Part shown: one piece after another, positions 50,535 to 54,170 of the stretch | Layout of the letters: each line of letters begins with the position of its first letter | How positions within the stretch are numbered: position 1 is the stretch's first letter | NCBI RefSeq assembly: GCF_023684405.1 | Contig: NZ_JAGSOI010000003.1 | Coordinates: 1-64,000, forward strand | DNA length: 64,000 nucleotides | Direction: 5' to 3' | DNA from: Methanococcoides seepicolus | GTDB taxonomy: Archaea > Halobacteriota > Methanosarcinia > Methanosarcinales > Methanosarcinaceae | Position numbers and translations under genes: made by a program | The notes under the pieces: generated by a model | The model's input: the letters and a program-made list of their open reading frames with translations, nothing else | The model's database searches: none | Told to the model about the DNA's origin: nothing

Positions 50535-52436
50535 TCACCCAAATTTCACAACCGGGCAAATTGTAACACAAGCACCACAATGAGTGCATTTACTGCTTAT
50601 GATCGCCTTTCCGTCTTCTATATTGATACAGTCTTTAGGACACTTTCCTACGCAGACCCCACACCCCATACATTTCAAAGACCGTCTTACAGCTCTTTCG
50701 ATCTGGGTCATGAACTCTCTTGCGTCTGTTTCGTTATTGCCTCTTGCAGTTACTGTCCCTGATGCGAATATCTGTGCACGGTCATCTTCGTGATGCACAG
50801 AAGCAACACCCTCGATATAGGCAACTTTACCTGCTGCACGGAGCAATCCGGTGGTTTCCAGAAGTTCCATGTCCAGTGCAATACCAAAACTGCCTTCAGC
50901 TGACATTCCACCTTCGCGGCATGGTCTGTATCCTGAGGTTACACTGAATTTCAGCTCACCTTTAACATCACTCTTTGGTATGATATTGATTCCCTTTTCC
51001 TCTGCTACTTTTGCAATAGCGGGTGGGAGGGTCTGCCATCTCCATAGTCCGTGCTCTACCCACTCTTTCGACAGTCCCATCTTCTCCGCATATTCAAGCA
51101 GATGGTCATTAAGTCGTTTTTCCAGCTCAGGATGTGTTTCTTTCAGCCTGTACAGGTCTGACAATGAGGACGATGGGCATAACCAGCATCCTATACGGTC
51201 GAATCCCCTCTCGTACATTACATTATAGGGTACACCGGTCTTGAAGATATAGAGCCAGACATGCATTGCTGTCCAGTCCTGTATGGGTGACGCTCCGATC
51301 TGGTTGCCTACCCACGGGTTCTTCCAGATCCGTTCACTGTTTGCCCTTGCAGCGGATTCGTACTTTCTCTGCCCGATAAAAGTGAGACAACCGTTCTCAT
51401 AATTGTCATTGATTATCTGTGCGATAGGTCCAAGTTTACAGACCTTGCAACACCAGCGTGCTTCCACTGAAGGAGGTCCGAAGTTCCCGACAGATTCCCA
51501 GAACGCTTCTCCTGCATTCTTTGTTCGAAGCGGGCGCTGATAATGATCCACTATGTCCTTCACATTCTCTATGGTTTCAGGGAATTCAAGCCCGGTGTCA
51601 GCGAAAAGGAGTTCGTAATCATCAAGGCACTCACTGACAAGCTGTAATACTGCAAGGCTGTCCTTTCCTCCTGAATAGGACACGCTAACCGGCCGTTTCA
51701 CAGTTTCATTGACCTGTTTGATGAATTGGTGTGCTTTATCCTCGAAGAGCTCAAGTATTTCGGAATTCGCTTTGACCGCATCATCCCATGTCTGTCCGCC
51801 TTCAGGCACATCTATCTTTTCGGGTTTGCCTTTCCATCTGTTCTTGACACCAACACCCTTTTTCTGCTCGATCATATCCGCACCGGTCATGCGTGCTCTT
51901 CCGACTGCAACGATCTCGCCTTCGGGTGTAAGTACAACGGTCTCGTCCGAGACCTGTATCTGTGGGTCGGCATCTACGATTCCCGGGGCCAGTACGCTTG
52001 CCCCTTTCAAGATAAAACTGACCGCACCGCTATCAAGCACTACCCAACCTTTCATCTCTTTCAGGTCCTTGCTTTCAAAAAGGCGTCTTGCACCGGCCAG
52101 TCTTGGCAGGAGTACCCACTTCAGGCTGTCCATTTCAAAACGGAAACTTGCAAGGACTTCACCATCAACGATCACTTCTTCCATTCTGTCATCGTAGGGT
52201 GCTTTGTTGAGTACCGCTAAGTGCCCTTCAGGTATCAGGGGTGCATTGAACTGTTCCAATGAAACTGTGTTTATATTGTCTATATCATACTGAAATGCTG
52301 GTCTGATGTCGCCAGGCGGTGTAACACCCACTTTCGTAGTTGCCTTGCCACAACTGCATTTTTTCCCGAGTACGGGGACATTACAGTCTTTACACCAGTG
52401 CAGAAGCAGTTTTCCCAGATATACAGGTTTTGACAT
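50535..52436 (-). CDS. Zinc ribbon-PUA-PAPS reductase-ferredoxin fusion protein
   Basis: A 633-residue multidomain protein. Domain order: zinc-ribbon (Cys15, Cys18, Cys27, Cys29); a PUA-like domain (about 135-205, VVLDSGAVSFILKGASVLAPG); a PAPS-reductase-type ATP-pyrophosphatase domain with PP loop SGGKDS (255-260) and the cysteines of ARWCCKVCKLGP; and a C-terminal 2x[4Fe-4S] ferredoxin (CMGCGVCVGKCPKDC, CTHCGACVTICP). PUA suggests an RNA substrate, so a sulfur- or adenylyl-transfer reaction on RNA is plausible, but sulfur assimilation is also possible. ATG 52436 has no ribosome site; the longer frame to 52508 is less likely. It follows the Cas4-like gene by 52 bases. Confidence 0.88.
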   Translation of the reverse strand: MSKPVYLGKLLLHWCKDCNVPVLGKKCSCGKATTKVGVTPPGDIRPAFQYDIDNINTVSLEQFNAPLIPEGHLAVLNKAPYDDRMEEVIVDGEVLASFRFEMDSLKWVLLPRLAGARRLFESKDLKEMKGWVVLDSGAVSFILKGASVLAPGIVDADPQIQVSDETVVLTPEGEIVAVGRARMTGADMIEQKKGVGVKNRWKGKPEKIDVPEGGQTWDDAVKANSEILELFEDKAHQFIKQVNETVKRPVSVSYSGGKDSLAVLQLVSECLDDYELLFADTGLEFPETIENVKDIVDHYQRPLRTKNAGEAFWESVGNFGPPSVEARWCCKVCKLGPIAQIINDNYENGCLTFIGQRKYESAARANSERIWKNPWVGNQIGASPIQDWTAMHVWLYIFKTGVPYNVMYERGFDRIGCWLCPSSSLSDLYRLKETHPELEKRLNDHLLEYAEKMGLSKEWVEHGLWRWQTLPPAIAKVAEEKGINIIPKSDVKGELKFSVTSGYRPCREGGMSAEGSFGIALDMELLETTGLLRAAGKVAYIEGVASVHHEDDRAQIFASGTVTARGNNETDAREFMTQIERAVRRSLKCMGCGVCVGKCPKDCINIEDGKAIISSKCTHCGACVTICPVVKFG

Positions 52437-52488: not shown

Positions 52489-53307
52489 TTAGAAGAATTT
52501 AGAGGCAAGAGTGGACTTGGTTGTGCATAAATGTGTGAAATTACAATGTTCGCAGATCTTCCCTTCTTTACGTTCAGGTAGGTTTCCGTCTTTTATTCTG
52601 TCGACACGGTCGCGTATCTTAAGCACCTGTCTTCTATCCTCAGGTCTGACCTTCACTTTTCGTATCTTTCCTTCCTTTGCATATTCCACAAAACCGAACT
52701 CTACTATTTTCCCGCCGTTTTCCTCTACCAGCATTGAAAGAGCTGCAATATGTATCCTATCGTTTCCCCAAACTCCGTTTTCCGGGCATCTTCCGGTTCT
52801 GATGGAAAGGGGTACCATCCTTTCTCCATATTGTACTATGGCAGAAGGAATACCTGTCAGTTTCAATCTGTCAGAATGAAGTACAGGTTCCGTTCGATGA
52901 GGCATTATACTTTGTATGATGTCAACTTCGTTGCTCTTGAAGACCGCATCGGAAAGGTTTGTTGCAATATTATCAAGCAGTTCAAATACGTTCTTTTCAG
53001 CAGTCTCTATCACATTAAAAGGGACATTTTTTAGCTCAGTGGAGTAGATGAAGTCAAGTTCGCTCTTTACACGTTCGAATTGCGCACTAAGTTCTTCCAA
53101 AATGCTTTCTTTTGTGGGCTTTGCTTTTTTGATAACATCTGCATAACCCATGGCTAGCTCCTTTAACATCATATGTTCAATATATCCTGAACTGATGGTT
53201 GGCATAAGCTCCTGCTCTCTGTATGTATAATATACTTGTCTGGGACATTTTAAGTACAGAAGAAGTTCCGATACATTAGCATGCAATTTCAGATCTGCCA
53301 GGGACAT
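52489..53307 (-). CDS. Cas4-like protein with apparently inactive nuclease site
   Basis: A 272-residue protein with the Cas4/AddB iron-sulfur layout: Cys21 in LKCPRQVYY near the N terminus and Cys252, Cys255, Cys261 (CEHCNFTHLC) near the C terminus. The nuclease core between looks degraded: at the usual GxxD motif there is TGIPSAIV with Ser155; at the E-x-K motif there is LSIRTG with Ser168 and Arg170; and the usual Gln is His186 in DRIHIAAL. No CRISPR array or other cas gene is in the window. It starts at ATG 53307 without a ribosome site, divergent from the XRE regulator, across a 16-bp palindrome. Confidence 0.84.
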   Translation of the reverse strand: MSLADLKLHANVSELLLYLKCPRQVYYTYREQELMPTISSGYIEHMMLKELAMGYADVIKKAKPTKESILEELSAQFERVKSELDFIYSTELKNVPFNVIETAEKNVFELLDNIATNLSDAVFKSNEVDIIQSIMPHRTEPVLHSDRLKLTGIPSAIVQYGERMVPLSIRTGRCPENGVWGNDRIHIAALSMLVEENGGKIVEFGFVEYAKEGKIRKVKVRPEDRRQVLKIRDRVDRIKDGNLPERKEGKICEHCNFTHLCTTKSTLASKFF

Positions 53308-53429: not shown

Positions 53430-54170
53430 ATGACCAAAGATATGGCCAATGAAAATATTCGTCAGCGTCTAGCTGAAAAAATGGCAGGCGAGATCACTTT
53501 ATCCGAGAAACCCGGTGAGGCGCTGAAAAAATGGAGACTTAACTTCGACATTGCCCAGACTGATCTTTCGGGCTATCTAAAAGTATCTCCTTCTGTCATC
53601 AGTGATTATGAAAGTGGACGGCGAAAGTCTCCAGGAACTCTCATTGTCAGCAAGATAGTCGATGCTCTTTTGGAGATCGATACTTCAAAGGGCGGACAGA
53701 AAATACACAGCTACGAAGGCATGCTTTATGCCAATCCGGGAGCTAAGGCGGTGTATGCGACCTATGAATATACATATCCTATGCAGCTCGCCAAACTTGC
53801 AACCCTGATCGAAGCGGATGTTGTGAACAAGGGTGTGGAAAAACCTCTTTACGGTTTTACGGTTGTGGATAGTAAGAAGGCCATCCTTGAGCTTTCTTCC
53901 CATGAGTTCCAGAAACTCTATGGGTGGAGTACCGAACGTGCATTGATATTCACCAAGGTATCCACAGGAAAATCACCACTGGTGGCTATTCGCGTGACCA
54001 ATCTGAAACCGGGAGCGGTTGTCATCCATGGGATTCGTGGCAACCAGGTCGATCCGATGGCAAAGAAGATGGCAGAGATCGACAGGATACCACTTCTCGC
54101 AACAACGATGGACATTGATGAACTGGTCGAAGTGCTGAAAAAGTACAGCCAGTATCATGTGATCGAATAA
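53430..54170 (+). CDS. XRE-family transcriptional regulator leading the mevalonate operon
   Basis: A 246-residue DNA-binding protein. The HTH lies at about 29-90, with AQTDLSGYLKVSPSVISDYESGRRKSPG as core (read as DLSGYLKVSPSVISDYESGR). The C-terminal domain (100-246) is conserved-looking with IHGIRGNQVDPMAKKMA and could bind a metabolite of isoprenoid synthesis. No ribosome site is seen and the TATA-like box lies about 27 bases before ATG 53430, so a leaderless transcript is likely. It is 56 bases ahead of HMG-CoA synthase. Confidence 0.9.
   Translation: MTKDMANENIRQRLAEKMAGEITLSEKPGEALKKWRLNFDIAQTDLSGYLKVSPSVISDYESGRRKSPGTLIVSKIVDALLEIDTSKGGQKIHSYEGMLYANPGAKAVYATYEYTYPMQLAKLATLIEADVVNKGVEKPLYGFTVVDSKKAILELSSHEFQKLYGWSTERALIFTKVSTGKSPLVAIRVTNLKPGAVVIHGIRGNQVDPMAKKMAEIDRIPLLATTMDIDELVEVLKKYSQYHVIE

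Follow-up and report, generated by a model that had tools for sequence, protein, structure and literature searches.

The window analysed here, a stretch of 64,000 nucleotides of a contig of Methanococcoides seepicolus (NZ_JAGSOI010000003.1), carries an open reading frame for a protein of 272 amino acids, which was confirmed on the minus strand (Table 1). The protein matched the Pfam family Cas_Cas4 (PF01930) with 42.2 bits (cut-off 22.7) and PDDEXK_1 with 27.1 bits (cut-off 22); with 57.8 bits, it stayed narrowly below the cut-off of 65 of TIGR00372, the NCBI equivalog model for Cas4. Its closest named relatives are Methanococcoides proteins (92% identity), and it is a single chain lacking the helicase fusion that marks AddB or Dna2. 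A search of the PDB with the window protein alone gave no useful match, and a structure prediction with this protein and three relatives of 92% identity reached a mean pLDDT of 33.9, which was too low for use or for a structural search. Searches of viral contigs and plasmids yielded no clear member of the protein family: the viral contigs gave one short weak match, and the matches on plasmids were ordinary cas4 genes.

The earlier note had described the gene as standing alone, upstream of a PUA/PAPS-reductase fusion and divergent from a mevalonate regulator, with no CRISPR nearby. Both neighbours were confirmed, and no cas gene occurred among the identified flanking genes; neither cas1 nor cas2, the usual companions of a CRISPR-associated Cas4, was found beside the gene. 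The gene is solitary in this respect only, as the PUA/PAPS-reductase gene follows about 52 bp downstream on the same strand, so that the two may be co-transcribed. In the taxonomic family to which the window's genome belongs (f1), the divergent HTH-HMG-CoA synthase cluster was present at nearly every long locus and the PUA/PAPS-reductase gene downstream at most of them; the fusion is a possible operon partner in f1 only.

Table 1. Features of the Cas4-like gene and its neighbours (positions in the window).
Feature	Position	Strand	Basis
Cas4-fold, predicted iron-sulfur protein, 272 aa (solo-Cas4 subfamily without motif-III Glu)	52489..53307	-	ORF translation, profile searches, profile-profile comparison
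Codon of Cys21, first predicted Fe-S ligand	53245..53247	-	invariant in alignments
C-terminal cysteines 252, 255 and 261, predicted Fe-S ligands	52525..52554	-	invariant in alignments
Codon of Ser155, opposite motif-II metal-binding Asp of Cas4	52843..52845	-	profile alignments
Codon of Ser168, opposite motif-III Glu (E-x-K); Glu in no family member	52804..52806	-	profile alignments
Codon of Arg170, opposite motif-III Lys	52798..52800	-	profile alignments
Codon of His186, opposite Gln of QhXXY	52750..52752	-	profile alignments
Signature P175-x-x-G178-V-W180-x-x-D183-R184, not in Cas4 paralogues	52756..52785	-	alignments
PUA / PAPS-reductase / ferredoxin-domain fusion, downstream gene	50535..52436	-	Met25 of the listed ORF taken as start
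Divergent HTH regulator heading HMG-CoA synthase gene cluster	53430..54170	+	profile matches; linkage conserved in f1

The four-cysteine Fe-S staple of Cas4 (DUF83) is complete in the window protein (Cys21, 252, 255 and 261), and all four residues are invariant in the orthologue alignment, as had been claimed. The proposed replacement of the catalytic residues was likewise borne out by alignment to true Cas4s. When the profile of 33 orthologues (A1) was compared to that of 18 Cas4 paralogues of related genomes (A4; probability 99.7%, E = 1.6e-25; repeated with other settings), Ser155, Ser168, Arg170 and His186 came to lie opposite the Asp of RecB motif II, the Glu and Lys of motif III (E-x-K) and the Gln of the QhXXY motif, respectively. 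Two alignment methods assigned these positions alike, and the paralogue profile itself matches the solved Cas4 structures 8d3l, 7mi4, 4r5q and 4ic1. Instead of QhXXY, the window protein has His186-Ile-Ala-Ala-Leu190. A motif-I His is not conserved family-wide; Lys49-Glu50 is found near the expected place, in a segment that is not firmly aligned. Replacement of the corresponding residues by alanine almost abolished activity in Pcal_0546 (4r5q; Asp, Glu and Gln) and in SSO1391 (Asp, Glu and Lys); the Q131A mutant of SSO0001 retained significant activity (PMC4176176).

The gene is carried by 175 of the 186 genomes of the order, mostly in single copy, and profile searches detected it in other families of the class and phylum-wide, with 282 of 392 genomes of the phylum matching the family profile at an E-value of 1e-15 or better. 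These 282 matches may include other Cas4s, and the residue counts are therefore restricted to sequences that were actually read; the counts include all aligned sequences without correction for relatedness, and the same residue pattern was obtained with a set of 86 sequences sharing under 72% identity. The motif-III Glu was present in none of the 124 readable family members from across the phylum and in none of the 86. The motif-II Asp occurred in 1 of 53 sequences of f1 versus 63 of 70 outside it (sister families f2-f5 19/22; other orders of the class 12/12; elsewhere 32/36). Position 170 is mostly occupied by Lys or Arg, with Ser, Ala, Gly, Leu or Phe in 13 of 36 sequences of other classes, and the window's genus is uniform (Ser155, Ser/Thr168, Arg170 and His186 in 11/11).

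Among 21 Cas4-type paralogues obtained in the same genome searches, the Asp (21), an Asp or Glu at 168 (21), the Lys (21) and the Gln (20) are kept, sequences with an acid at 168 having been classed as paralogues. The distinction does not depend on this residue only, since the paralogues also show far lower scores with the family profile, do not possess the GVWxxDR signature and group largely separately on the tree. In a quick tree calculated without columns 150-192, the residue states are clustered, with 8 changes against 41 after shuffling. Because of its long branches and many open forks, this tree was used for the clustering of states only, not for rooting, and no stronger claims on the history of the states are derived from it. 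According to the earlier note, orthologues keeping Asp and E-x-K at these positions would have spoken against the loss; the Glu is never kept, whereas the Asp is mostly kept outside f1, so that the loss is general for the former residue only. It is likely that the site was lost stepwise, in a putative order read from the sequences, with the Glu absent phylum-wide, the Asp lost mainly in f1 and the Lys changed to Arg in a patchy manner.

Several other positions are conserved in the family and not in the paralogues. In the 86-sequence set, these are Pro175 (84/86), Gly178 (83/85), Trp180 (75/86, Tyr in 8), Asp/Glu183 (81/86), Arg184 (78/86), Arg216 (82/86) and Lys/Arg49 (82/84), and each cysteine of the staple is found in 85/85. 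Residue 183, located 13 residues past 170, takes the position of the Cas4 His in H-x-x-Q, beside the catalytic Gln. The conserved P-x-x-G-V-W-x-x-D-R signature points to a changed function and not to decay. In addition, dN/dS ratios among the Methanococcoides orthologues ranged from 0.08 to 0.24 in most computable pairs, which corresponds to purifying selection; higher ratios (0.27 to 0.41) were confined to comparisons between the three closest relatives, for which the estimate is least reliable. The loss common to the orthologues, the selection and the newly conserved positions support the suggestion that this is a repurposed family if orthologues share the loss. The support is partial: the Asp is mostly kept outside f1, and a rebuilt site is possible in the lineages that keep it.

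By PF01930, the window's genome contains only one other Cas4-type match, a UvrD-Cas4 fusion on another contig (L082, G000:C24), and two Cas1 matches, of which the listed one is also on another contig, in a frame of 409 amino acids with the size of a casposon integrase. With regard to CRISPR INDEPENDENCE, a Cas1 match is missing from 27 of the 123 near-complete genomes in the order, and the gene is present in several of these (e.g. G077, G079, G114 and G015). No cas gene was found among the recurrent annotated neighbours across the family loci. Purifying selection, near-universal retention and the presence in genomes without cas1 argue for a housekeeping role that is independent of CRISPR.

These observations favour, with a probability of roughly 55%, a solo-Cas4 subfamily that spans the phylum, was passed on mostly by vertical descent and no longer has an intact canonical metal site; its members would bind nucleic acids without cutting them by the usual chemistry and independently of CRISPR adaptation. 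The PD-(D/E)XK site would have been dismantled by exchange of the motif-III Glu for a hydrophobic residue or Ser, the neighbouring helix would have been rebuilt around P-x-x-G-V-W-x-x-(D/E)-R, and f1 would in addition have lost the motif-II Asp. The four-cysteine staple with its predicted Fe-S cluster presumably continues to hold the fold together, and basic and aromatic residues are kept (Lys/Arg49, Arg184, Arg216 and Tyr209). The protein may bind DNA or RNA at ends, flaps or branched structures, like active Cas4s, and act as a structural or regulatory subunit in genome maintenance, in which neither cutting by the usual chemistry nor CRISPR adaptation would be involved. We infer the Fe-S cluster, the nucleic-acid binding and the biological role of the window protein in this way; for the protein of f1, a nucleic-acid-binding Fe-S protein is most likely. 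For the phylum as a whole, the subfamily appears as a repurposed or rebuilt, CRISPR-independent solo-Cas4, the repurposing being partly supported.

The window protein resembles Cas4 (DUF83/PF01930; Pcal_0546, 4r5q; SSO0001, 4ic1; 8d3l) in the RecB-type fold, as judged by profile, in one N-terminal and three C-terminal cysteines, and in Tyr209, conserved in its family, whose counterpart in the alignment is the essential Tyr166 of Pcal_0546. It differs by the absence of the motif-II Asp, the motif-III Glu, the QhXXY Gln and a conserved His, by PxxGVWxxDR and Arg216, which are specific to its subfamily, and by the absence of identified cas neighbours. The UvrD-Cas4 fusion of the same genome shares the RecB-type domain and the cysteine staple, but is fused to a helicase and has D, E-x-K and Q intact. 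Archaeal solo-Cas4s as described by Hudaiberdiev et al. (2017, PMC5704561) are likewise found outside CRISPR loci, are vertically inherited at the level of orders and show similar dN/dS ratios (0.06-0.18). However, conserved catalytic motifs led these authors to suggest that all Cas4s are active, and the subfamily described here does not fit this statement. A precedent for a Cas4 fold without catalysis, likened here by description alone, is the nucleocapsid protein of TTV1, cited in the same article as an inactivated Cas4 derivative; unlike the window protein, it is a viral structural protein.

According to an editorial (PMC13383573) on the study of Rentz et al. (2025, doi 10.1093/femsml/uqaf024), Solo-Cas4 of Methanosarcina mazei is a metal-dependent nuclease that forms higher-order complexes and affects growth; a citing paper (PMC13034035) states that micromolar enzyme is required for its activity. 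In 15 Methanosarcina-like genomes (g13), all other Cas4 matches lie within about 2 kb of cas1, are fused to cas1 or belong to a frame of 937 amino acids, which is taken for the UvrD fusion. The orthologue of the window protein is the sole remaining match, and therefore the M. mazei protein is very probably this orthologue. Three Methanosarcina-like orthologues possess Ser155, Met/Ile168, Lys/Arg170 and His186. These sequences would predict an inactive protein, in contrast to the reported activity, which, if it belongs to the same protein, cannot stem from the canonical site as aligned. The view that the FeS-fold is kept for something other than cutting DNA is thus contested: the loss of the residues and the new signature speak for it, and the activity given in the editorial summary speaks against it.

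In restriction enzymes of the NgoMIV/Cfr10I type, the catalytic acid has moved to the next helix, 12-13 residues after the Lys. A comparable relocation is thinkable in the lineages keeping the Asp, due to the near-invariant acid at the position of the Cas4 His; Asp155, Lys170 and Asp/Glu183 would then constitute a rebuilt nuclease site, and the window protein would descend from such a nuclease as a late, weakened or dead form. The spacing between 170 and 183 is exactly 12 intervening residues, as in NgoMIV/Cfr10I, and position 183 is acidic in 81/86 sequences. It corresponds to the His three residues before the Gln (His146 and Gln149 in Pcal_0546), and the abstract of PMC4176176 calls His146 a metal ligand, but the body text considers His94 instead of His146 for the role of a possible fourth ligand. 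The activity of the M. mazei protein, as reported in the editorial (PMC13383573), would also fit. However, Asp155, Lys170 and the acid at 183, i.e. the relocated pattern (Asp ... Lys-x12/13-Glu/Asp) at sequence level, occur together in only 19/86 family members, one clade with Asp155 and the acid has Ser, Ala or Gly at 170, and f1, including the Methanosarcina-like genomes, does not possess Asp155. Both sites, the canonical and the rebuilt one, are incomplete in the window protein (Ser155, Arg170). A rebuilt nuclease is therefore regarded as a tentative alternative, and a series leading from a permuted nuclease with the acid moved to Asp/Glu183 to a pure Fe-S nucleic-acid binder after the loss of the Asp in f1 is rather doubtful.

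It is improbable that the protein is an ordinary active solo-Cas4 with misassigned canonical positions, even if the editorial summary of the study of Rentz et al. (PMC13383573) and the Pfam match above the cut-off are in line with this. The two alignment methods concur on the positions, and the 33-sequence alignment contains neither a conserved acid at or beside 168 nor a conserved His; furthermore, with the micromolar amount of enzyme mentioned in PMC13034035, the activity might come from a contaminant or be a weak side reaction. Alternatively, the protein might assist CRISPR or casposon integration, handling prespacers after loss of its ability to cut; in favour of this, the best profile matches are Cas4 profiles, and Solo-Cas4 of Pyrococcus furiosus is cited in PMC12538437 as processing one prespacer end. 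This is hardly probable, because many genomes of the order keep the gene without any Cas1 match and the recurrent neighbours do not include cas genes. Least of all can a decaying remnant heading for loss be expected. Such a remnant would agree with the N-terminal half-proteins of one genus (G102, G103) and with the partial extra copies downstream in three Methanosarcina-like genomes, but is already largely refuted by conservation: dN/dS is about 0.1-0.2 at ordinary divergences, 175 of the 186 genomes of the order retain the gene, and many positions are conserved at 90% and above.

Solo-Cas4s are widespread in archaea. If the catalytic Glu is missing from the version of a whole phylum, it would be wrong to state that the catalytic motifs are retained in all Cas4s, and annotation models of the TIGR00372 type would mislabel part of the subfamily as CRISPR nucleases. 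Several relatives without the Glu exceed the cut-off of TIGR00372, and databases will consequently label them as CRISPR-associated Cas4. The sharpest point would be that the activity which the editorial reports for the M. mazei protein needs explaining, either by a rebuilt site or by a contaminant.

Outside f1, no single pathway emerged from the conserved context of the gene, and the neighbours elsewhere in the phylum give a hint of genome maintenance. A HesB/IscA-type gene is a neighbour at L045-L047. In two genomes, an Orc1/Cdc6-type gene overlaps the start of the Cas4-like frame (L144:4905-6032, L148:6731-7885), and in one family a gene for a HerA-like helicase and a DUF555 gene lie upstream of the Cas4-like gene (L154, L159), with a HerA-like gene also nearby in L160. 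At nine loci from several families (L152:4946-5887 and eight others), a conserved protein of about 315-390 amino acids is encoded beside the Cas4-like gene or close to it. It gave no Pfam or NCBIfam match and possibly carries a nucleotidyltransferase motif; a Sua5-type gene is also present in four of these loci.

Some family members deviate in sequence or length. In one clade (L195, L197, L198 and L199), His is found at 155 and Gln at 183; the Asp was lost separately, and the DR pair is also gone. One genus (g8; genomes G102 and G103) encodes the N-terminal half only (L181:6001-6465, L241:2431-2856), without the three C-terminal cysteines, and neither genome has a Cas1 match. In three Methanosarcina-like genomes, partial C-terminal extra copies (L238:5279-5623, L239:2194-2436, L240:5024-5440) are located 2-4 kb downstream of the full gene, and one of them is interrupted by a stop codon.
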